Below, piece by piece: positions 33,610 to 44,144 of a stretch of 64,000 nucleotides of DNA. The stretch's first letter is position 1; every line of letters starts with the position of its first letter. The DNA comes from Candidatus Methanoperedens sp. BLZ2 (lineage in GTDB: Archaea; Halobacteriota; Methanosarcinia; Methanosarcinales; Methanoperedenaceae): positions 1-64,000 of the forward strand of contig NZ_NTMG01000064.1 of the NCBI RefSeq assembly GCF_002487355.1, read 5' to 3'. The notes under the pieces were generated by a model. It saw only the letters and a list, made by a program, of their open reading frames with translations. It did no database searches and was not told the DNA's origin. Both the position numbers and the translations under genes were made by a program.

Positions 33610-33736
33610 TTTTTCTCTCTCCAATCTATTAGATATATTTCAATCATCCACGTATCAAACCCATAAAAGATTTTCTTAAACTACGAATGGATTTGTAATT
33701 ATATTTTTTCCAGGTTATGTGTCATAATCTTTATAT

Positions 33737-33758
33737 TGTCAATACTCATATATTGACA
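33737..33758. promoter_or_regulatory. Operator-like palindrome abutting a regulator's start codon
   Basis: TGTCAATA and TATTGACA are perfect inverted arms around six bases, ending one base before the ATG at 33760; a TTTATATT TATA-like element is at about 33730. A second pair of arms, ATGTGTCA (33716-33723) and TGACACAT (33754-33761), brackets it. This is the geometry of an autoregulatory operator for the HTH protein encoded immediately downstream. Confidence 0.6.
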
Positions 33759-33759
33759 C

Positions 33760-34206
33760 ATGTTCCTTCCTTTAAATGACAAGCAGTTTGAATTCTGGAG
33801 GCTGAGGCGCAGCGGTATTCTCAGCATAGACATAGCGCGCCTTTTCAATATCTCCAAACAGGCTGTTTCAAAGGCGCTCCTCACGATGGATGAAAGAATA
33901 GAAAAAACCCTTCTTGAGATGGCACGTGCTAACCAGATAGAGGTAGAGAAGATAAACATGGAGCGAGGCATCCTGTTCGGGCATTCCGTGCCTTTTAATG
34001 CCAGCGCCATAATTTTCGTATCTGCAAAGCATGGGATGCAGGTATGGTACGAGCATGAAGGGAATTGCGGCGCCTGTACAAGATATGCACAATGTATTGA
34101 ACTGCTGTGGGATTTTGCGGATGAGATGAAGCTTAAGCTTGAGAAAACTGATGATCCCACGAAGCTGGCTGAGGAGCTTTTTGAGAAGTTGAGGGGATTG
34201 GCATGA
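33760..34206 (+). CDS. HTH regulator with cysteine cluster, head of the GWCP operon
   Basis: A 148-aa soluble protein. Residues about 5-45 form a helix-turn-helix (LNDKQFEFWRLRRSGILSID, IARLFNISKQAVSKALLTMD), similar in tone to sigma-70 region 4 or Tfx-like regulators. The middle has VSAKHGMQVWYEHEGNCGAC and then TRYAQC: three cysteines (CGAC...C) with nearby His, a possible metal or redox site. The stop overlaps the ATG of the first GWCP gene, so the regulator and the membrane proteins are translationally coupled. The palindrome at its start suggests autoregulation. It is the natural regulator of the 34-42 kb cluster; that role is inferred. Confidence 0.7.
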   Translation: MFLPLNDKQFEFWRLRRSGILSIDIARLFNISKQAVSKALLTMDERIEKTLLEMARANQIEVEKINMERGILFGHSVPFNASAIIFVSAKHGMQVWYEHEGNCGACTRYAQCIELLWDFADEMKLKLEKTDDPTKLAEELFEKLRGLA

Positions 34207-34922
34207 CGATAAATATAGATTATATCTTAAGAAAAACGATTGGCTGGTGCCCATTAAAGGATAGAATGTTTGTGCAAGTTCATGAAAGTGGCAAGATTTG
34301 CAATTCCAATAAAGATCAAGCCAATAGTGGAATAGCAAATAATGTAAATTTACCTCTTGATATGTTTGACTGGCGCAAGTTTGCAATTATATTAGCTCTT
34401 GGTTTTTCTGCCTTCATTTTAATTTTCGTAAATTATTTAAATAGAACCGCTGCAAGTTATTTTGGCATCATATTGCTTTATTTTACTTTTATTGCATTTT
34501 TTAATCTGTCCGATAAGAACAAAGTATCGATTGATTCTGAAAAGCTGGTTATAAAGACTTCTTTCTTTGAATCCATCAATATCCTGAAACATGATATAAC
34601 TGATATAAAAACAATTGACAATGTTATCTACAAATACAGTTGGGTCAATTTAGTTTTAATTATTCTTATTTTAATACTCGGGTTTTTCCAGGTCCTGAGT
34701 TTACATGGCCAGATAATACGGTCTGCTGACATGGAAGATGCAGTATTACATATTGCCAATTCGATGTTCATGTTTTTTATCCTTATATCAAGTTTCTATC
34801 GAAGCAATCGCAGATCCAGGTATCCAAAAACCATCCGGATAGATACTGCAACAAAAAACATCACGCTCTACCCGATAAATGAATCTGAGTTTAATATTCT
34901 GAAAGGAGAATTAGAGAAATGA
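34203..34922 (+). CDS. GWCP-tagged membrane protein 1
   Basis: A 239-aa protein. The N-terminal tag is YILRKTIGWCP (GWCP at 34242-34253), followed by a ~40-residue hydrophilic linker to DMFDWRKFAIILALGF, two helices, a cytoplasmic beta-rich segment (VSIDSEKLVIKTSFFESINI, LKHDITDIKTIDN), two further helices and a C-terminal YPINESEFNILKGELEK tail. The body with strand-rich segments around a helix pair looks like a membrane PH-type domain. It is close to the protein at 36706. I recall the tag from Methanosarcina DUF1673-type proteins. Function unknown. Confidence 0.65.
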   Translation: MTINIDYILRKTIGWCPLKDRMFVQVHESGKICNSNKDQANSGIANNVNLPLDMFDWRKFAIILALGFSAFILIFVNYLNRTAASYFGIILLYFTFIAFFNLSDKNKVSIDSEKLVIKTSFFESINILKHDITDIKTIDNVIYKYSWVNLVLIILILILGFFQVLSLHGQIIRSADMEDAVLHIANSMFMFFILISSFYRSNRRSRYPKTIRIDTATKNITLYPINESEFNILKGELEK

Positions 34923-35917
34923 CGGGCACTTTTGTTGAGAATATTAGAAAAATGATGGGGTGGTGCCCGGATGAGAGTATAGCAGAGCGAAAAAGAAGGT
35001 TAGTAGAATATGAGATAGAGCCAATAAATGCCGGTTTATCGGTTAAAAAATGGAAATTAGATTTATTAATAATCGGGCATATCTGTGCTCTGCTATTTGC
35101 ATCTTTGTTTATTTTACCGATGAGCGTTTATCAAGCTTTTGATCTTTACAACAGCCCATATCTGTCGCTAAACCACGGTCAGTTTTCAGCAGATATTACA
35201 TCATCAGTTGCAAGCACACTGTTTTCGATTGCCACTGTTATGCTGATTTATAATATTACCGTCTTTAAAAAATTATACTCTAAACTCTGCTATTTTAACA
35301 TAATCCTGCTTTCGGGGTTATTTGTAGCGATAATTTATCTACTTTCTTTCTATGGAGATTACAGGCTTGAGTGGAGCATCGACTGGGCGTTTGTTCTTGC
35401 ATTGTTCCCCTCGATTCCAAGCATTTTGAGCATACGGTTCAATAAAAGATATGGAGAACAGAAGTTAGTTCCAGAAGGTTCAGGCCTGGTTGAACTTATT
35501 AAGCGTACTATGGGCTGGTGCCCAAACGCAAGTGTAGCCTCCAGAAAAACAGTAAAATTAGAAAGCATCGATAATGAAAATTTTATTGGAATTCGTCCTC
35601 CTACAGCAGAAGTCACTGTTTTATGGCTGAGCAGGATTTTTGGTATACTGGATTTGCCTATCGCCTTTATTGCGTTAATTGACGGATCCCTTATTTTTAC
35701 TATTCTTAATCCTTCCTATATCCCTAAAACAGCAGAGCAGTGGATAGGTTTCTTCACCGCCATATCTGCTGTAGCAGGCGCTATGGCAGGACTAACCGCA
35801 AAAAGCAGTCATTCAATGGGGCGGAAGATAATCCATCTTTTGTTTGCGGCTCTTGGAGTAATTATGACTTTCAACACACTGGCCAGGCTATTTTTGTCCA
35901 CTGGCTGGCTTTCGTAG
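34919..35917 (+). CDS. GWCP-tagged membrane protein 2, a fusion with two tags
   Basis: A 332-aa protein with two complete units. Unit 1 starts TFVENIRKMMGWCP (34958-34969) and has four helices. At residue 199 a second tag, LIKRTMGWCP (35513-35524), starts unit 2: NASVASRKTVKLESIDN, IFGILDLPIAFIALIDGSLI, ALGVIMTFNTLARLFL. Unit 2 is nearly identical to the free-standing 148-aa protein at 38830, so this gene is a fusion of two once-separate genes. Its ATG overlaps the preceding stop. It shows that the tag can sit internally, at the start of each membrane module. Confidence 0.7.
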   Translation: MTGTFVENIRKMMGWCPDESIAERKRRLVEYEIEPINAGLSVKKWKLDLLIIGHICALLFASLFILPMSVYQAFDLYNSPYLSLNHGQFSADITSSVASTLFSIATVMLIYNITVFKKLYSKLCYFNIILLSGLFVAIIYLLSFYGDYRLEWSIDWAFVLALFPSIPSILSIRFNKRYGEQKLVPEGSGLVELIKRTMGWCPNASVASRKTVKLESIDNENFIGIRPPTAEVTVLWLSRIFGILDLPIAFIALIDGSLIFTILNPSYIPKTAEQWIGFFTAISAVAGAMAGLTAKSSHSMGRKIIHLLFAALGVIMTFNTLARLFLSTGWLS

Positions 35918-35930
35918 AGGAGCAAAATGT

Positions 35931-36704
35931 ATGCCGGGAAATATTCATGAAGAAAAGGTGGTAAAATTGAATATCGAAGCAATTAAGCGTACTATGGGCT
36001 GGTGTCCGAATGTAAATCCGGTGATACATGAAAATATCAGAAATGTCGATTTTGCACACCTTCCGCAGGAACCTCTTGGCAAACCACGTGTTGAAAAATT
36101 TCAATCCAAAAATGTAATGTTTTCTGCTAACAATATCTTGTTCACTATTTGCCTTGTGATCAGTCTGAATTTGATATTGGCTGTGGCCAGAAATCTGGAC
36201 TATGCAATCTTGATCCCAGTTCTTGTTGGAATATTATCCTTACTTTACCTCATTGTGGCTATAACTTTTAAGGCGCATATTTTAATTGATGAAAACGGTG
36301 TGCATTTAAGAAATTTCGAGCTAAGGGACGTATTGCTAAATTATAGGAATGTTAAATCAATAACTATAAGAAAAGGCGTTAAACTTCCAATCGGACTAAT
36401 TGTGATAGGGTTACTGCTTCTTGCTGCAATGCTTGTTATGTTGCTTACTTACTCATTGAAGTCAGGAGACTGGAAATTGACCCTATCGATTGCTTGCCTA
36501 TTGCCCTGGCTTTTGCTAGTGAAACACAAGCAAGATAAGGAATATCATAATCTGAATACACAATTGTACATTCAGCATGAAGACAAGAATCGACATAAAA
36601 GATGGTATGAACTAGCGAACACATCCTATTATTCGATCATAACAGACGAGACGACAGCATCTGAAATACAGGCTTCTATTGAACATTACAGGGGTGCAAA
36701 TTAA
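35931..36704 (+). CDS. GWCP-tagged membrane protein 3
   Basis: A 257-aa protein. The first 26 residues (MPGNIHEEKVVKLNIEAIKR then TMGWCP, tag at 35997-36008) are almost the same as in the protein at 39291. The body has two helices (about 62-100), a beta segment (ILIDENGVHLRNFELRDVLL, YRNVKSITIRKGVKLP) and two more helices (about 155-200). The tail is cytoplasmic (LYIQHEDKNRHKRWYELANT). The PH-like arrangement is as in other members. No function known. Confidence 0.65.
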   Translation: MPGNIHEEKVVKLNIEAIKRTMGWCPNVNPVIHENIRNVDFAHLPQEPLGKPRVEKFQSKNVMFSANNILFTICLVISLNLILAVARNLDYAILIPVLVGILSLLYLIVAITFKAHILIDENGVHLRNFELRDVLLNYRNVKSITIRKGVKLPIGLIVIGLLLLAAMLVMLLTYSLKSGDWKLTLSIACLLPWLLLVKHKQDKEYHNLNTQLYIQHEDKNRHKRWYELANTSYYSIITDETTASEIQASIEHYRGAN

Positions 36705-36705
36705 A

Positions 36706-37407
36706 ATGGTCTTTTTTAAATCGGTCAGGAAATTGATGGGCTGGTGCCCGCAGGAAACAGATTTTCCCACTGTTAAAGGCGTGTTTAATACAGACTACGC
36801 CCATAGTGATAAGAGACAGTCCAAATATTACCCTGTTGAGAACATGGACGTACCGATCCAGATGTTCGACCGGCGCATTTTTTCAATTGTATTAACCCTG
36901 GGTATTTCAGGTTTTATTTCAATATTCTTTGATTTATTTAATGGATTTCCTGGTTATGTACTGGTTTATATTATCTTTATTTTACTATTTATCAGCATTG
37001 ACCGGATCAAAATATCGATTGACAATGAAAAGATACAGATAAGTACACCTCTCCTCAAACCTGTCAATATTCCAAAACAAAATATAAATTGCATAAAAAT
37101 TATCGACAATTCTATTTACAAACATAGATGGATAAATATTTTCTTAATTATCTTTATCATGCTATTCATTTTTCTGCAAGTACTGACTTTATACCGCAAG
37201 ATAATACGTTCAACGCCTCTGGAAGAGATGGTATTTAGTTTTGTTATGCCTATTTTTTTGATTTTTTTACTCATATCGCCCCTTCAAAGAAATATTCGCA
37301 GGTCGCATTATCCAAAAGCCATCAAGATAGAAACTACAAATAGCATCACCCTCTACCCAAGAAATGAATCTGAGTTTAATATTCTTAAGGGGGAGTTGGA
37401 GAAATGA
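36706..37407 (+). CDS. GWCP-tagged membrane protein 4
   Basis: A 233-aa close paralogue of protein 1. The ATG at 36706 (two bases after the previous stop) gives MVFFKSVRKLMGWCP (tag at 36739-36750); an earlier in-frame ATG lies inside the previous gene. The body has DVPIQMFDRRIFSIVLTLGI, ISIDNEKIQISTPLLKPVNI, two helices and the tail ITLYPRNESEFNILKGELEK, which is nearly the same as in protein 1. The two probably arose by duplication within the operon. Confidence 0.65.
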   Translation: MVFFKSVRKLMGWCPQETDFPTVKGVFNTDYAHSDKRQSKYYPVENMDVPIQMFDRRIFSIVLTLGISGFISIFFDLFNGFPGYVLVYIIFILLFISIDRIKISIDNEKIQISTPLLKPVNIPKQNINCIKIIDNSIYKHRWINIFLIIFIMLFIFLQVLTLYRKIIRSTPLEEMVFSFVMPIFLIFLLISPLQRNIRRSHYPKAIKIETTNSITLYPRNESEFNILKGELEK

Positions 37408-38138
37408 TGGGCAATTTTACAGAAAATATCAAAAGAATGATGGGCTGGTGCCCGCAAAAAGATTTTGATTTCACGCACCTGGATAATATGAACAAGACGA
37501 ACATGAATGCCATTTATTCACAAAATAAGGTGCCAGAATATGATCGTGGTCGGGTAAAAATCCTTGTAGATAGTTCGCGTGATGCCGGTATAATAAGTAT
37601 TTTAATGCCTGCCACGATCATTTTTTTTATTTTTTTTATATTTATGACCATCAGGAACAAATACTCTGTTATAGATATAATCCCAATTTCGATATATTAT
37701 TTTGCCCTTATAATATTACTTCTTCAGAATAGAACATCTGTGGAGTTTGCACATGATTGTATAATTATCCACAGACCTCTGTTAAGGCCCATCACAATAC
37801 AAAGAAATGCCATTTTAAAAACCGAGATCATTAAGAATTCCATGTACAGAATGCGATGGTTCTTTTTGCCATTGGCCTTTTTTGCATTGTTATTAATAAT
37901 CCGACATAATTTAATCGCTATTTACCTGAACATAATGAAATCGTCTCCTCTAATAGTGAAAGTTATTGATGTCTATTCCATGCCGATGACAAGTTTACTT
38001 CTTTTTGTGATTTCCTACCATTACCTGGTCAGATCATACAACCCGGCTTTTCTCAAAATAACGACAAAAAATCGCGAAGTTACATTCTATACCAATAATC
38101 TGCAGGAACTGAAAAGTGAACTGAAGGTGGTTCAATGA
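37404..38138 (+). CDS. GWCP-tagged membrane protein 5
   Basis: A 244-aa member. The tag NFTENIKRMMGWCP is at 37443-37454; then linker, two helices, beta segment VEFAHDCIIIHRPLLRPITI, two helices, and the tail LKITTKNREVTFYTNNLQEL. The body is the closest match in the window to the tagless protein at 40069. ATGA overlaps link it to both neighbours. Confidence 0.65.
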   Translation: MMGNFTENIKRMMGWCPQKDFDFTHLDNMNKTNMNAIYSQNKVPEYDRGRVKILVDSSRDAGIISILMPATIIFFIFFIFMTIRNKYSVIDIIPISIYYFALIILLLQNRTSVEFAHDCIIIHRPLLRPITIQRNAILKTEIIKNSMYRMRWFFLPLAFFALLLIIRHNLIAIYLNIMKSSPLIVKVIDVYSMPMTSLLLFVISYHYLVRSYNPAFLKITTKNREVTFYTNNLQELKSELKVVQ

Positions 38139-38833
38139 CAGCTTTCATAAAAAATATCCGAAAAATCATGGGCTGGTGCCCGCAGGAAAAAATTGTCTAC
38201 AGGAGTGAAGATGAGTTTATTTCAGACTATGCCTCTCGAAGTAAGATCCATACTAATAATAATTCCATTAATGAGGATATGGATGTACCGCTGCAAATGT
38301 TTGACTGGCGCATCTGGGCTATTATTCTGGGTTTTGCGGGTTTAATTATAATCGGCAGTGCATGGGCAGGTACATATCGATATTTTATACCTGTGTCTTC
38401 TATCCTGATTGCTTTGCTTATCGTTTTTTTCCATACAAAATTATCTATTGGCAGTGAAACATTGAAAATCACCACGCCGATTTTAGGTGATACCGTAATT
38501 CCTAAAAGTAGCATCAAAAGCATAGAAATATTTGAAAACTACGGAAACAGGCATAAGCTGCGAAGCCTGGTTTCGTTAGTGGTGATGATATTGCTGTCGA
38601 TTTATTTTGTGGTTGCCATGCCAGACTCTGTCATGAATATATTGTTCCTTATTGCAATTTTTGGCTTTGCATATACATTATATGCCACTATCCGCATATC
38701 GAATTATCCGGATATGATCAGAATGAACGCTGGTGGAAGATACATTTTGCTTTATCCTCGCAATGAGCATGACTTTTTGAAATTGAAATATATTGTCCAG
38801 GGTATGCCGGGTTGTGAAAGGAGGAAGGAATGA
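38135..38833 (+). CDS. GWCP-tagged membrane protein 6
   Basis: A 232-aa member with tag AFIKNIRKIMGWCP (38171-38182), linker, DVPLQMFDWRIWAIILGFAG, beta segment LSIGSETLKITTPILGDTVI, then two helices and the tail MIRMNAGGRYILLYPRNEHD. It resembles proteins 1 and 4 in its linker end and tail. Overlaps both neighbours by four bases. Confidence 0.65.
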   Translation: MTAFIKNIRKIMGWCPQEKIVYRSEDEFISDYASRSKIHTNNNSINEDMDVPLQMFDWRIWAIILGFAGLIIIGSAWAGTYRYFIPVSSILIALLIVFFHTKLSIGSETLKITTPILGDTVIPKSSIKSIEIFENYGNRHKLRSLVSLVVMILLSIYFVVAMPDSVMNILFLIAIFGFAYTLYATIRISNYPDMIRMNAGGRYILLYPRNEHDFLKLKYIVQGMPGCERRKE

Positions 38834-39276
38834 CCGCATTTATCGAGAATATCAGGAAAATGACGGGCTGGTGCCCGAATACAAGCGTGGCGTCAAGAAA
38901 AACAGTACAAGTACAATTAGAAAGCATCGATAACGGAAATATTGTTAGGACCCGTCCTCCTTCAGTGGAAGTCACTGTTCTATGGCTGAGCAGGATTTTT
39001 GGTATGCTGGATTTGCCCATTGCCTTTGTTGCTTTGATTGACGGCTCCCTCATTTTTACTCTTCTTAATCCTTCCCATATCCCTAAAACAGCAGAGCAGT
39101 GGATAGGTTTCTTCACTGCCACATCTGCCGTAGTAGGCGCCATTGCAGGACTAACCGCAAAAAGCAGTCATCCAATGGGACGAAAGATAATCCATCTTCT
39201 GTTTGCGGCTCTTGGAGTAATTATGACTTTCAACGCACTGGTCAGGCTCTTTTTGTTTGCTGGCTGGTTTTCGTAG
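38830..39276 (+). CDS. GWCP-tagged membrane protein 7 (short)
   Basis: A 148-aa protein with tag AFIENIRKMTGWCP (38866-38877) followed by NTSVASRKTVQVQLESIDN and three or four helices (VTVLWLSRIFGMLDLPIAFV, FFTATSAVVGAIAGLTAKSS, IIHLLFAALGVIMTFNALVR). It is the free-standing version of the second half of protein 2. No PH-like beta segment. The DNA match to 35500-35917 continues across the next gene's start, so a block of about 0.5 kb was duplicated. Confidence 0.65.
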   Translation: MTAFIENIRKMTGWCPNTSVASRKTVQVQLESIDNGNIVRTRPPSVEVTVLWLSRIFGMLDLPIAFVALIDGSLIFTLLNPSHIPKTAEQWIGFFTATSAVVGAIAGLTAKSSHPMGRKIIHLLFAALGVIMTFNALVRLFLFAGWFS

Positions 39277-39290
39277 AGGGAGCAAAGTGT

Positions 39291-39806
39291 ATGCCAGGAA
39301 ATGTTCATGAAGAAAAGGTGGTAGGATTGAATATTGAAACAATTAAGCATGTTCCAGGCTGGTGCCCGAGTGTGAGCATGATGGAAGCAGGAAAATCCGT
39401 GCAGTTCGATGACATGACAGCGCCTGATAGTGGCAGGGAATTAACTTATACTACCGCAGGATTTTGGAACAAATATCACAACAGGATCTTACTGAACGCA
39501 GTTGTCCTTACGTTACTGGCAATGACTTATTACATTTCATATGGGCGATATGATCCTGATAATTTCCTGGCAGGCATAATCTATGGTTTAATATTTGGGT
39601 TTATGATAGCAGTAATTCTAATTGTTGGCTTCATCGCAGCAAAGACCGATCTCCGAATAAGTGGTATTTATGCCACTCTTTCAGGTTTCATTTTGTTTGT
39701 CTGGACACAATACCTTGAGGTGATCTACTGGGAACGGAAAAACAGGAAGATGCTTATAGTTGAGAAAACATCTTTTTATGCAGTTGATACAGGTGGTAGC
39801 AAGTGA
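39291..39806 (+). CDS. GWCP-tagged membrane protein 8
   Basis: A 171-aa protein. The start at ATG 39291 is supported by the parallel gene at 35931 (MPGN-x-HEEKVV); the longer frame upstream reads through the preceding gene. Tag IKHVPGWCP at 39357-39368, then a Tyr/Thr-rich linker and about four helices (ILLNAVVLTLLAMTYYISYG; LIFGFMIAVILIVGFIAA; IYATLSGFILFVWTQYL). The body is unlike its paralogue at 35931: the same N-terminal tag is joined to a different membrane domain. Confidence 0.65.
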   Translation: MPGNVHEEKVVGLNIETIKHVPGWCPSVSMMEAGKSVQFDDMTAPDSGRELTYTTAGFWNKYHNRILLNAVVLTLLAMTYYISYGRYDPDNFLAGIIYGLIFGFMIAVILIVGFIAAKTDLRISGIYATLSGFILFVWTQYLEVIYWERKNRKMLIVEKTSFYAVDTGGSK

Positions 39807-39840
39807 TTCTAAATAAACAGGCAATAGGTGGCACATTTAT

Positions 39841-40011
39841 ATGAGCGCAACATCCGGATACGCAATTGGATGGGGAACTCTTGCATTGATCAATGCGGGA
39901 ATCGCACAGGGGAAGAACAGGAGCGGTATCAACTGGTTCCTTCTTTCAATATTTTTTGGCCCTGTCGCAACATTAGTTCTGGTTGCATTTTGTGATAAAA
40001 AGAAGGGATAA
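39841..40011 (+). CDS. Small membrane protein within the GWCP cluster
   Basis: A 56-aa protein: MSATSGYAIGWGTLALINAG, then IAQGKNRSGINWFLLSIFFG, PVATLVLVAF and a CDKKKG end. The order (Ala/Ile helix, AQGKxRSGxNWFLLSxFxGP, short helix, basic end) is that of small two-helix membrane proteins I have seen in many prokaryotes, of unknown role. No GWCP tag. Confidence 0.6.
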   Translation: MSATSGYAIGWGTLALINAGIAQGKNRSGINWFLLSIFFGPVATLVLVAFCDKKKG

Positions 40012-40012
40012 C

Positions 40013-40072
40013 GTGATTGAATTGCCGGTGAATATCGTGGATAAAGTAAAAAGAATGATGGTAAAACAATGA
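40013..40072 (+). other. Truncated tag leader ORF without GWCP
   Basis: A GTG-initiated 19-codon frame, MIELPVNIVDKVKRMMVKQ, resembles the amphipathic tag leader (for example VEVIKKMM before GWCP) but ends just where GWCP should come. Its stop overlaps the ATG of the tagless body at 40069. It may be the relic of a tag separated from its body, or a short coupling ORF. Confidence 0.35.
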
Positions 40073-40638
40073 AAACACTCACCGACTATCAGTTTTCTAA
40101 TGTTATAATTACTGGTTGTGCAGCATATTTCGGTTTTTTAATTGCCGGCCTGGTTCTCCCATTCCCTTCATTTTTTTTTGTTTTGTCAATTTTGTCAATT
40201 CTTCTTACCTCTGTGATATTATTTGTCCAGGATAGAATCACAATAGAGTTAATTTCAAATGCAATAATTATTAAAAGAACGATCTTTAAGCGTGTTGAAA
40301 TATCAAAAGAGAGCATTCTGAAAATTGAAGTCCTGAAGAATCCTAACCATAGATTCCGCTGGGCGATAACATCACTTGTGATAATAGGATTGATTTTCTG
40401 GTTAATGAATATGATAGATACATTATCCCGCGTCTTAGAAAGAGATCCATTTTTATATTTCATCGCTATGGCTTTTGCAGAATCCACAATATTGATATTT
40501 GTCATAGTCCTGACCTATAAATGGTACATCAGGTCAAAGTATGAGAATTACCTGAAAATAACCTCAAGAACGAATAGGGAAGTCAATATTTATGTGGATA
40601 ATCCAACAGAAATAGTAAATAAATTAGGGGCAGATTAA
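40069..40638 (+). CDS. GWCP-family membrane body lacking the tag
   Basis: A 189-aa protein with the same body as protein 5 (two helices, beta segment ITIELISNAIIIKRTIFKRV then EISKESILKIEVLKN, two helices, tail LKITSRTNREVNIYVDNPTE) but starting directly at MKTLTDYQFSN, with no GWCP. The short frame just upstream looks like a degenerate tag leader. Either this member has lost its tag or it works together with the separate leader. Confidence 0.6.
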   Translation: MKTLTDYQFSNVIITGCAAYFGFLIAGLVLPFPSFFFVLSILSILLTSVILFVQDRITIELISNAIIIKRTIFKRVEISKESILKIEVLKNPNHRFRWAITSLVIIGLIFWLMNMIDTLSRVLERDPFLYFIAMAFAESTILIFVIVLTYKWYIRSKYENYLKITSRTNREVNIYVDNPTEIVNKLGAD

Positions 40639-40724
40639 TGATTATTTTTGAAGAAACCGTACGAGAAACAATTGGCTGGTGCCTGAATATTAAAATTAGT
40701 GGATATTCTGGGAAGGCTGCGTAA
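40638..40724 (+). other. Detached tag leader ORF with GWCL
   Basis: A 28-codon frame, MIIFEETVRETIGWCLNIKI followed by SGYSGKAA and TAA. The leader is a clear member of the tag family (motif at 40674-40685, with Pro replaced by Leu). It stops two bases before the ATG of the next membrane protein, in another frame. It is either a stand-alone tag peptide or a tag separated from its body by a frameshift. Confidence 0.45.
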
Positions 40725-40725
40725 T

Positions 40726-41004
40726 ATGATAGTCGATTTTAGGGAACAGGTAAGCAAACAGGTTATTGAAGAAGTCAGGAACAGAAAGTATCTTAAAAAA
40801 ATAAATGATTTATCTTACGGTATTTTTCTTGTAAGCTTGCTGTCGCTTTTGTTTTCCGGGATTTTATTCGTGTCCGGCATAGATTTGTATAATGGTCTCT
40901 TGTGGTTTAGCGTATCCTTATTTTTTTCATCAATTGTTGTTTGGACAATGTTAGGCATTTTCGTATATGTGAAAATTATTCATAAAGGAAATAATTTATT
41001 ATGA
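40726..41004 (+). CDS. Two-helix membrane protein
   Basis: A 92-aa protein (ATG 40726; a GTG at 40699 is also in frame). A basic amphipathic N-terminus (IVDFREQVSKQVIEEVRNRK) is followed by two helices (ISLLSLLFSGILFV-like and WFSVSLFFSSIVVWTMLGIF). It follows the detached GWCL leader. Its stop overlaps the next ATG. Function unknown. Confidence 0.5.
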   Translation: MIVDFREQVSKQVIEEVRNRKYLKKINDLSYGIFLVSLLSLLFSGILFVSGIDLYNGLLWFSVSLFFSSIVVWTMLGIFVYVKIIHKGNNLL

Positions 41005-41798
41005 ATTCCAGAGATACGGTTGAAGTAATTAAAAAAATGATGGGCTGGTGCCCTGTTGCAGATACAAAAACCAGCGAGCCTCCTTCTGGAGAAAGTTTTG
41101 CCAGTAAGCCAGAAGGCGGGGGCGATGCATCTGGGAAGTCATTTGGATCGTTATTCGAATGGGATTACATCGTTAAGGAAGAACTGTTGCGCTCGATTGC
41201 TGTTTTATTCTATACGTTTATTGGCATCGGGTCGTTGATCAAGTATGGTTATATCAAAGCAGACCTGACTGATACATTTTTCCTGGCGCCGATCGTAACC
41301 TTTGCCTTTTTTGTAATCATGGTCTTGTACAGGAAGAATACACTGAGCCCCATAATATACTGTTTTGAAAATACCAAACCGTTCAGAGAATTGGCTATCT
41401 TGATTGCAATTTACGCGGTATATCTTTATTTCTCACTTCAACACCCTGTGCTTCATAGCATATGGATTCTTATCATCTTATACATAGCCTCAAAACTTGG
41501 GAAAATATTCGAACTTAACCGCCCCACAGGTGTTAAGATGATGCTCTTCGTTGCAGCAGCATCTGCCTTCGTCCTTATTCGATATTATGCATTGCAGTTA
41601 CCTCTGATGCCCCTCATAAAAGGCATCTTAACTCTTGAAGCAGTTATGCTGGTATTTGTGGTTCTGTCAAAGTGGATGGGATTTGAAGAACCTGATTATC
41701 TGAAAAGAATGGATCGGAAAGGTTTCCTCATATTCGTGGCACTTATTGTTGTCTTATCGATAATTGGGGCAGCGGTAATGATCGGGCTTGACAGGTAA
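41001..41798 (+). CDS. GWCP-tagged membrane protein 9
   Basis: A 265-aa protein: tag TVEVIKKMMGWCP (41043-41054), then a Ser/Gly/Glu-rich linker (SEPPSGESFASKPEGGGDAS) and seven or so helices (ELLRSIAVLFYTFIGIGSLI; FFLAPIVTFAFFVIMVLY; ELAILIAIYAVYLYFSL; and others) ending FLIFVALIVVLSIIGAAVMI. This body is unlike the PH-type members, adding a further module type attached to the same tag. Confidence 0.65.
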   Translation: MNSRDTVEVIKKMMGWCPVADTKTSEPPSGESFASKPEGGGDASGKSFGSLFEWDYIVKEELLRSIAVLFYTFIGIGSLIKYGYIKADLTDTFFLAPIVTFAFFVIMVLYRKNTLSPIIYCFENTKPFRELAILIAIYAVYLYFSLQHPVLHSIWILIILYIASKLGKIFELNRPTGVKMMLFVAAASAFVLIRYYALQLPLMPLIKGILTLEAVMLVFVVLSKWMGFEEPDYLKRMDRKGFLIFVALIVVLSIIGAAVMIGLDR

Positions 41799-41819
41799 TC
41801 AAATAGAGGAGAAATTGTT

Positions 41820-42429
41820 ATGAATGCATTTAAGAAAATAAGGTTATGGCTGGGCTGGTGCCCGAACGCGAACATGAACAGGAAAATCACCATGCAGAGG
41901 GAGATCGAAATCCCGGAAATGGATTTCTATTCAAAACCGCCATTATTCAGTCCAATTCTGCTGAAGGATGCCTATTTTATGGGAATAACAAAAGAGACTG
42001 TAATTAGTATACCAATAGTATTGATCTTAATTCTCCTTTATTTCCTCAGGTTCAGTTTCTTTTTCGAATCATATTCAGTTTATCTGATATTACTTTCCGT
42101 GGTGCTGCTCCAACTCATTGTTTCAAAAGCAGGTATTGAAATTAGTGACAGAAGCATAAAGGTAAAAACTATACTTAGCCCTCTTATGGGTTCGACTTTT
42201 GAATTTAATAGATGGGGCGCCCCGGGTAAAAATCATTGGGAGCCTGATGTGGATAATTGTTAGTTTTGGTTTTGGTTATCAGATGTACTCGGTATCAAAG
42301 TCCGTGTCAAATATCCGGATACGGTTTTTGCCGCATCCATCTGTTAATAAAATGACGATACACACAACTAATGCCGGGCAAATAGCTGATCTGATAGAGA
42401 AGGCCAGAAATAGAAATTTTGGTGATTAG
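41820..42429 (+). pseudogene. GWCP-tagged membrane protein 10, frameshifted
   Basis: The first frame (41820-42263) has tag FKKIRLWLGWCP (41853-41864), helices (SIPIVLILILLYFLRFSFFF) and the beta segment IEISDRSIKVKTILSPLMGS, then goes out of phase near 42195. The second frame (42199-42429) supplies the rest of the family layout: DGAPRVKIIGSLMWIIVSFG, then IRIRFLPHPSVNKMTIHTTN and AGQIADLIEKA. The join falls at a TTTT run. The restored product would be about 203 aa. It is either a sequencing indel or a recent lesion. Confidence 0.65.
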
Positions 42430-43097: not shown

Positions 43098-44144
43098 ATG
43101 ATTAAAAGAACAGGAATAGTTCTGCTCGCAGTAATTATAATATCCCTTATATCGGGATGTACTGCAAACATGTCTGCCGAGCAGATCGCACAGCAGATGA
43201 AAGCGAAACAGGATAGTATCAAAGACTATTCAGCCACTATGGTAATCGCCTCAGAATTTGGGGGCAAGAGCGAGATGGCAAAAGCAAAAATGATGAACAA
43301 GATGCCTGATAAGAGCAGGATTGAATATCTTGAGCCTGGCGAGATGGCTGGCCAGGTCATGGTCAATGACGGCAAGACTATATGGAGTTATGACCCTGGG
43401 AAAAATGAGGTAACCAGGATGGATATGCCTGAATTTGCCAATCTTTCTGAGCAGGATTACACCCAGTCTATTAAGGAAATCCTGAACCAGACTGACATAT
43501 CTTACCAGGGCACAGAAAAATTTGAAGGGAGAAGTGTATATAATATCAAAGCATCGCCAAAGAACGGCAGTATGATGGGCATGCATTATAATATGCTGGT
43601 GGACAGTGAAAACTGGATGCCTCTCAAGACAGAGGTGTTTGATAAGAATGATAAGCTCATGACTTCAATGGAATATCGGGACATAAAATTCAACATCGGC
43701 ATACCCGATAGTGAATTCGAATTCAAGATACCTGAGGGCGCAAAGGTGGTTACAAAAGAGCGTCCGGCGCCGCCCAAACAAATGACACTTGAGGAAGCCA
43801 GGAAAGAGGTAAATTTCACAATCCTTGTGCCTTCTTATCTGCCAGAGGGTTTTACATTCAACAGCAGCACAGTGTTCAAATTTGAAACTATGGAAACTGT
43901 GTCGCTGGAATATAAGAAAGGTTCTCAGATACTTTCGCTTTCCGAGACACTCCAGGATGAATCAAATCCTTCGCCGGATATGGGCGAAGTCGAGAAAGTC
44001 AACATTAATGGTGCACAAGGGAAAATAATATCAGGATTTGGTGAAACCAAAATACTGATATGGAACAATGGCAAGCTTGGATTAGTGCTTTCCAGCCAGT
44101 TAAGCAAAGAAGAAATGATCAAAGTAGCGGGGTCGATAAAATGA
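43098..44144 (+). CDS. LolA-like lipoprotein with C-terminal DUF4367 domain
   Basis: A 348-aa exported lipoprotein: MIKRTGIVLLAVIIISLISG with a lipobox LISGC (Cys22). The middle (about 25-225) has the layout of LolA-like 'outer membrane lipoprotein sorting' proteins common in archaea: MKAKQDSIKDYSATMVI, PDKSRIEYLEPGEMAGQVMV, NDGKTIWSYDPGKNEV. The C-terminal ~115 residues (VNFTILVPSYLPEGFTFNSS, VNINGAQGKI, LGLVLSSQLSKEEM) are a DUF4367 domain, the same as the two copies in the protein at 17036. It probably sits on the outer face of the membrane. GGAGG ribosome site precedes ATG 43098. Confidence 0.8.
   Translation: MIKRTGIVLLAVIIISLISGCTANMSAEQIAQQMKAKQDSIKDYSATMVIASEFGGKSEMAKAKMMNKMPDKSRIEYLEPGEMAGQVMVNDGKTIWSYDPGKNEVTRMDMPEFANLSEQDYTQSIKEILNQTDISYQGTEKFEGRSVYNIKASPKNGSMMGMHYNMLVDSENWMPLKTEVFDKNDKLMTSMEYRDIKFNIGIPDSEFEFKIPEGAKVVTKERPAPPKQMTLEEARKEVNFTILVPSYLPEGFTFNSSTVFKFETMETVSLEYKKGSQILSLSETLQDESNPSPDMGEVEKVNINGAQGKIISGFGETKILIWNNGKLGLVLSSQLSKEEMIKVAGSIK

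Follow-up and report, generated by a model that had tools for sequence, protein, structure and literature searches.

A portable N-terminal GWCP tag on unrelated archaeal membrane proteins and the regulator and operator palindrome that accompany it: a candidate signalling cassette

Introduction

In Bacillus subtilis the membrane protein SdpI sequesters the autorepressor SdpR at the membrane (PMC1626106), and PH-domain proteins as well as Yip1 proteins occur in leaderless bacteriocin clusters (PMC11580447). For archaea few routes are described by which a signal is passed from the membrane to a promoter. The group arCOG06827, assigned to supercluster SC.00027, is listed as "Membrane protein expansion in Methanosarcina, MGWCP motif, DUF1673" (PMC4158269 Table 2; PMC4390880). 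Here we describe an operon of such proteins on the plus strand of contig NZ_NTMG01000064.1 from Candidatus Methanoperedens sp. BLZ2 (GCF_002487355.1). It spans positions 33760-42429 of a stretch of 64,000 nucleotides, which as a whole is called the window in the following. Its membrane protein open reading frames (ORFs) carry twelve copies of a tag with the motif GWC[P/L], and its first gene encodes a helix-turn-helix (HTH) regulator.

A preliminary description made from the sequence of the operon had regarded the tag as a module which is shared by unrelated membrane domains and serves as a signal for sorting, assembly or modification. The module view agrees with our results. As to the role of the tag we come to a different reading, to which we assign a probability of about two thirds: the operons would form a dedicated signalling cassette that uses a common docking tag to connect a diverse set of membrane proteins to a single transcription factor. 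The genetic wiring is strongly supported, while direct binding of the tag by the regulator and its sequestration are what we infer from the sequences.

The tag and the regulator

The tag is an N-terminal element of about 17 residues, consisting of an amphipathic helix and the residues Gly-Trp-Cys-Pro. A search of the whole 3.7 Mb genome with a profile of the tag revealed twelve matches in the window between 34203 and 41879 (E 3e-12 to 3e-8) and a thirteenth on contig C16 (E 1e-6). Since nothing else was found below E 1, the cluster is not due to chance, and the twelve copies counted earlier are confirmed, including the one at 40639 that reads GWCL. Across the families the Cys is present in 384 of 384 tags detected with the profile and GWCP in 375 of them, numbers which are favoured by the detecting profile itself. 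The synonymous codons for Gly, Cys and Pro vary freely, and therefore selection acts on the peptide and not on the DNA; for that reason a DNA- or RNA-level motif (the inverted-repeat-like GGGCTGGTGCCC) was rejected. A further tag-like match, to an AMP-ligase-like protein (G179, L117), was discarded as spurious.

The tag is a real portable module. When the tags are removed, the 449 tagged proteins of the combined loci can be grouped by sequence into 21 clusters. Every cluster consists of membrane proteins, and plainly unrelated families are among them (SdpI, Yip1, polysaccharide flippase, AglB/STT3 core, DUF6159, PLDc_N). The preliminary description had considered that all bodies might belong to one family, or that the Cys might vary among homologues; neither is the case.

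Each tagged operon begins with the gene of one conserved HTH regulator. Among 150 genomes of the order the regulator is encoded in 70 and the tag in 68; both are found in 66, and only one of them in four and two genomes, respectively (Fisher p 6e-35). The co-occurrence with the HTH regulator, which had been suggested earlier as a check, is thus strongly positive. A second sample of 80 loci was fetched by the regulator alone and is independent of the tag. It covers Methanoperedens, Methanosarcina, Methanolobus, Methanococcoides, ANME-2/-3, Methanoculleus, Methanoregula, Methanospirillum and Methanolinea as well as one record labelled Archaeoglobales. For 74 of the 79 regulators with enough downstream sequence a tag follows no more than 1.6 kb downstream in the same orientation, in most cases after 0-50 nt, and all tags of at least 12 bits in these loci (236/236) lie downstream of the regulator on the same strand. 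The smallest units are made up of the regulator and one tagged protein. Loci from the different searches overlap, so all counts refer to distinct sequences and not to independent events.

The regulator is soluble and comprises the cluster CGAC-x5-C, as already described, which is part of a His-x3-Cys-x2-Cys-x5-Cys site. Cys103, Cys106 and Cys112 are invariant in 139 of 139 different copies, and His99 is found in 138 of them. The AlphaFold2 (AF2) model (predicted local distance difference test score, pLDDT, 88; predicted template modelling score, pTM, 0.81) consists of the HTH, a small beta-sheet, the His/Cys site and two helices; this and the other structure predictions are of single chains. 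No significant relative of the regulator was found in the PDB by sequence or fold, and its C-terminal domain is covered by no solved structure. An identity with MreA (MA3302) was rejected: the sole full-length regulator of Methanosarcina genome G133, which we take to be M. acetivorans C2A, is located at 5.53 Mb, and MA3302 is expected at about 4.1 Mb according to the gene numbering. A viral origin was also dismissed, as no viral contig encoding the regulator was found.

The operator palindrome

Between the TATA box and the start codon of the regulator a palindrome, GTMAAY-N8-RTTKAC, is conserved in 110 of 112 loci with the canonical regulator (a paralogous one is described below), and in 106 of them it ends exactly 2 nt before the ATG. 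The full pattern occurs at two exact sites in the own genome, compared to about 0.06 expected from an estimate based on the pattern information. One belongs to the operon described here; the other is found just before the lone tagged gene on C16, the first codons of which (MFLPLN) are those of the regulator itself, fused to the tag.

The 150 genomes contain 72 exact sites, 48 of which lie directly at the start of a regulator gene; a backward control pattern yields about 7 sites. Four sites precede solitary tagged genes (C16 here, G027, G030, G137). Most of the remaining matches look like chance hits or remnants. Scans for sigma-70 promoters and terminators gave matches at chance numbers only.

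Some of the single sites are worth recording. In G078 (C60:25044, L120) and G090 (C54, L253) the gene of an untagged Yip1 protein is preceded by an operator copy of its own, and the N-terminus of this protein, MNFVEKIKATLLNP, resembles the helix of the tag without GWC. In G071 (C186:5478, L257) the pattern is found inside a long coding frame similar to an RNA polymerase B subunit; near-identical matches in G002, G051 and G063 probably concern the same gene and are probably a coincidence.

Two matched versions

Regulator, operator and tag occur in two matched sets, which are not mixed. A paralogous regulator, the copies of which are 78-100% identical to the query within their own group, could be identified in Methanomicrobiales. 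The operator variant GTAAAY-N8-RTTTAC is found at 22 of 23 paralogous loci versus none of the 112 canonical ones, and the membrane proteins next to the paralog carry G[L/F]C[R/P] tags where the canonical ones have GWCP. Canonical regulators are accompanied by 409 tags with Trp and two with Leu, paralogous regulators by 39 tags with Leu or Phe and none with Trp. The two exceptions are a chance motif (L115) and a canonical operon with GLCP (L038). Bodies similar to DUF6159 are found with both types of tag, which always match the class of the regulator, and in the tree of these bodies the class changes at least four times on well supported branches.

Fixed differences between the two regulators are found at two places, the start of the recognition helix (positions 32, 35 and 38) and the immediate vicinity of the Cys site (107-108, with Arg replaced by Glu at 108, and 115-116, with Leu-Leu replaced by Phe-Ile). 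Those in the recognition helix fit the changed operator. Glu108 accompanies tags which mostly end with C-R-K, and Arg108 accompanies C-P; judged by these sequences, residues 107-108 and 115-116 may be the site that binds the tag.

Membrane bodies behind the tag

Among the bodies there are matches to SdpI (E 6e-18), DUF1648 (8e-16), PLDc_N (7e-7), Yip1 (1e-19), DUF6159 (1.6e-6) and a polysaccharide flippase (3e-21). The SdpI/DUF1648 fold is confined to one body cluster of 13; it is not found in the other bodies and in none of the window. While the regulator is 55-97% identical across the order, the bodies are hypervariable; so are the tandem arrays of Methanosarcina, which contain up to about 16 copies.

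A body with five transmembrane (TM) helices from the minimal units contains an additional domain related to the C-terminal core of AglB/STT3 (PDB 3vgp, E 1.2e-5; STT3A, E 7.5e-4). The WWDYG-type motif is present, and WWD is invariant in 13 of 13 sequences. As this body has just five TM helices and lacks the 13-TM N-terminal catalytic domain, we regard it as similar to a detached core domain and did not class it as an oligosaccharyltransferase. An 11-TM protein similar to STT3-N/AglB with WWDYG (PF02516, E 1e-7 to 1e-9; L135:11107-12834, L251:1240-2979) is possibly the companion of this core domain. It is encoded downstream of the regulator in L135, after the tagged AglB-core protein in L126 and alone behind an operator in L251. 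A full-length flippase of the Wzx type with an N-terminal GWCP tag adjoins a second copy of the regulator in L051 (G137) and L052 (G121); here the protein connected with the regulator is thus transporter-like.

The proteins of the window belong to several kinds, as had been noticed. The connection of the tag to DUF1673 proteins of Methanosarcina, which the preliminary description had made, was correct (PF07895; PMC4158269). Pfam assigns most of the tagged proteins to DUF1673. In the window, the proteins encoded at 39291 (76 bits), 34919 (38.6) and 41001 (37) score above the gathering threshold of 30.4, whereas those classified as PH-like reach 17-24 bits. The latter form part of a split superclade with profile-profile probabilities of 40-97%. 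They have no PDB match by sequence, but the AF2 model of the protein at 38135 shows a beta-sheet interrupted by a membrane hairpin, and its top 13 Foldseek matches are all PH domains, although weak ones (E 0.13). A further kind, named after the residues HEEKVV, could not be maintained as a body type. The two genes concerned differ in their bodies, a distant PH-like one at 35931 and DUF1673 proper at 39291, and HEEKVV is an N-terminal extension that was copied by the 509-bp duplication described below.

Features of the operon

The features of the operon are summarized in Table 1. The tight packing of the genes reported before is also seen here, as the start codons either share an ATGA with the stop codon of the gene before or follow it within tens of bases. 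A segmental duplication of 509 bp (35512-36013 versus 38865-39373, 87% identical) has copied the VASRK body together with the start of the next gene. There are two copies of the short NTSVASRK body, one of which continues the reading frame of a preceding tagged body, so that one of the tags is internal. One pair of tags in the window has 23 identical bases in common. The genes at 41820 (frameshifted), 40639 (a stub) and 40013 (GWCP lost) are decaying copies within the array.

Table 1. Positions of the promoter elements and genes of the tagged operon in the window.
Feature	Position	Strand	Basis and remarks
TATA-box-like element TTTATATT	33730..33737	+	Sequence; abuts the operator; A/T-rich block at -30 to -23 in the alignment of 112 canonical loci
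Operator palindrome GTCAATAC-TCAT-ATATTGAC	33738..33757	+	2 nt 5' of the regulator ATG
HTH regulator, 148 aa, predicted autorepressor	33760..34206	+	His99/Cys103/Cys106/Cys112 site; Cys and His conservation, AF2 model
Tagged PH-like membrane protein	34203..34922	+	Tag 34203-34268
Fused ORF, two tags and two bodies	34919..35917	+	Tags 34919-34984 and 35480-35539; second body of VASRK type
Tagged distant PH-like protein, MPGNxHEEKVV extension	35931..36704	+	Tag 35958-36020
Tagged PH-like membrane protein	36706..37407	+	Tag 36706-36762
Tagged PH-like membrane protein	37404..38138	+	Tag 37404-37466
Tagged PH-like membrane protein	38135..38833	+	Tag 38135-38197; AF2 model and Foldseek
Tagged VASRK-type 3-TM protein	38830..39276	+	Tag 38830-38892
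Tagged DUF1673 protein proper	39291..39806	+	Tag 39318-39383; PF07895, E 4.6e-21
Decayed tag VIELPVNIVDKVKRMM, GWCP lost, stop	40013..40072	+	Read from the sequence; followed by untagged PH-like ORF 40069-40638
Tag stub, GWCL, 28 codons then stop	40639..40725	+	Followed by untagged 2-TM ORF 40699-41004
Tagged 7-TM protein	41001..41798	+	Tag 41007-41066
Tagged PH-like protein, frameshifted	41820..42429	+	41820-42263, then 42199-42429

Downstream of the operon a LolA/RseB-like lipoprotein with DUF4367 is encoded (43098-44144), relatives of which are found near a few other clusters. It was rejected as a component of the cassette due to its presence in just 8 of the 80 loci.

Proposed mechanism and alternative explanations

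The regulator is probably an autorepressor of the tagged operon, because the operator covers the region from the TATA box to the start of an apparently leaderless mRNA. The tag would lie in the cytoplasm and be bound by the C-terminal His/Cys domain of the regulator, which we consider likely with slightly less confidence. From the helix counts we infer an N-in topology. It would place the tag and likewise the PH-like domains on the cytoplasmic side, and the AglB-core domain carried by the 5-TM protein would be exposed on the outside. By analogy to SdpI and SdpR, a membrane body might sense an event at the envelope and hold the regulator at the membrane via the tag, by which the operon would be derepressed; we see even chances for this step. 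It is rather doubtful that the Cys of the tag participates through the metal/thiol site of the regulator. The likely inputs are an attack on the cell envelope or envelope stress, since SdpI, Yip1 and PH-like proteins resemble immunity and accessory proteins of bacteriocin systems, and the AglB core and the flippase point to the assembly of surface glycans.

Several observations weigh against a docking tag that is read by the regulator. Rare variants spotted by eye lack the Cys or the Trp (GWFP in L190, GRCP in L167 and L195), a few regulators have no tagged neighbour (for example L135), and behind a few operator sites there are untagged genes for Yip1 (G078, G090) and an STT3-like protein (G030). 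The paralogous version is known from Methanomicrobiales only, and the tree of the DUF6159-like bodies has long branches and rows flagged by the program. Moreover, the matching of tag and regulator could partly reflect new bodies captured behind a resident tag, as the 23 identical bases illustrate.

If this capture were the whole explanation, the tag would be a conserved 5' end behind which bodies recombine, and tag and regulator would never touch. Identical tag DNA of 23 bp in neighbouring genes, the 87% duplication, the fused ORFs and the MFLPLN codons at the start of the lone gene on C16 are in line with such hitchhiking. However, the conservation of Cys and GWCP with free synonymous codons, even if favoured by the profile, needs selection on the peptide, and the decaying genes at 40013 and 40639 lose GWCP; we therefore regard this explanation as improbable. 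A marginally better, still low, chance is given to the original idea of a sorting, assembly or modification tag, according to which Trp-Cys-Pro is lipidated, disulfide-linked or bound to metal or heme by a dedicated enzyme or partner and the regulator merely controls the operon. An invariant Cys followed by Pro, the amphipathic helix and the fact that every body is a membrane protein would suit it. But it remains unsupported: no modifying or processing enzyme was found beside the tags in the minimal loci, which comprise nothing but the regulator and a single tagged protein (enzymes elsewhere in the genome were not searched for), and a general signal would not explain why GWC versus GLC tracks the regulator paralog within one body family.

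The least probable of the alternatives is an inducible immunity array, in which the bodies act against membrane-active peptide toxins, the tag aids the formation of mixed complexes and the regulator answers something else. A part in bacteriocin immunity or transport is established or suspected for SdpI, Yip1 and PH-domain membrane proteins (PMC11580447, PMC1626106), and the hypervariable tandem arrays of Methanosarcina also speak for this idea. No toxin gene was seen beside the clusters, though, and the co-variation of tag and regulator as well as the AglB-core and flippase bodies are left unexplained.

In its furthest form, to which we give even chances, the reading would make these operons an undescribed class of archaeal transmembrane signalling with a hub factor, an open-ended set of unrelated sensors, portable docking peptides and two insulated channels in one genome. 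The wiring scheme is testable from sequence, as regulator, operator and docking peptide are accompanied by a second version with all three changed. It also provides a function hypothesis for an expanded family in methane-producing and methane-oxidising archaea. As a means of connecting a membrane protein to a promoter, the tag of about 17 residues could serve as a natural modular sensor chassis.

Comparison with known systems

In a literature search of limited range only the entry "MGWCP motif, DUF1673" and the family name were found. As far as this literature goes, no earlier description seems to exist of the regulator, of the operator, of the two matched versions or of the range of bodies. 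The DUF1673 family (PF07895) comprises the same proteins, including that of the window gene at 39291. The Pfam family, however, corresponds to the tag plus one body, whereas here the tag is separable and belongs to a cassette of regulator, operator and tag that extends well beyond Methanosarcina.

The N-terminal HTH of the regulator is similar to that of the Tfx family (TIGR00721), but the 16.5 bits are far under the cut-off of 60.25 and the C-terminal His/Cys domain is not covered. The same domain is left uncovered by the archaeal regulator of PDB 8HNO/8HNP, the top Foldseek match, which is alike in its N-terminal HTH. In contrast to sortase-like tag systems such as PGF-CTERM/archaeosortase, the minimal loci lack a processing enzyme (a distant one was not searched for). 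The leaderless bacteriocin clusters share the same body types and operons which often include a regulator gene, but no tag is described for them and they are tied to genes for a core peptide and an ABC transporter.

SdpR is an ArsR-type protein; family searches with the archaeal regulator gave no ArsR-type match. In the SdpI/SdpR pair as in the tagged operons, the gene of an HTH regulator adjoins that of a polytopic membrane protein. Some of the tagged bodies, those of a single cluster, are SdpI/DUF1648 proteins, and the position of the archaeal operator is compatible with autorepression. The wiring differs: SdpI and SdpR connect one sensor to one repressor without a portable tag, whereas in the archaeal operons many sensors would be connected to one regulator.

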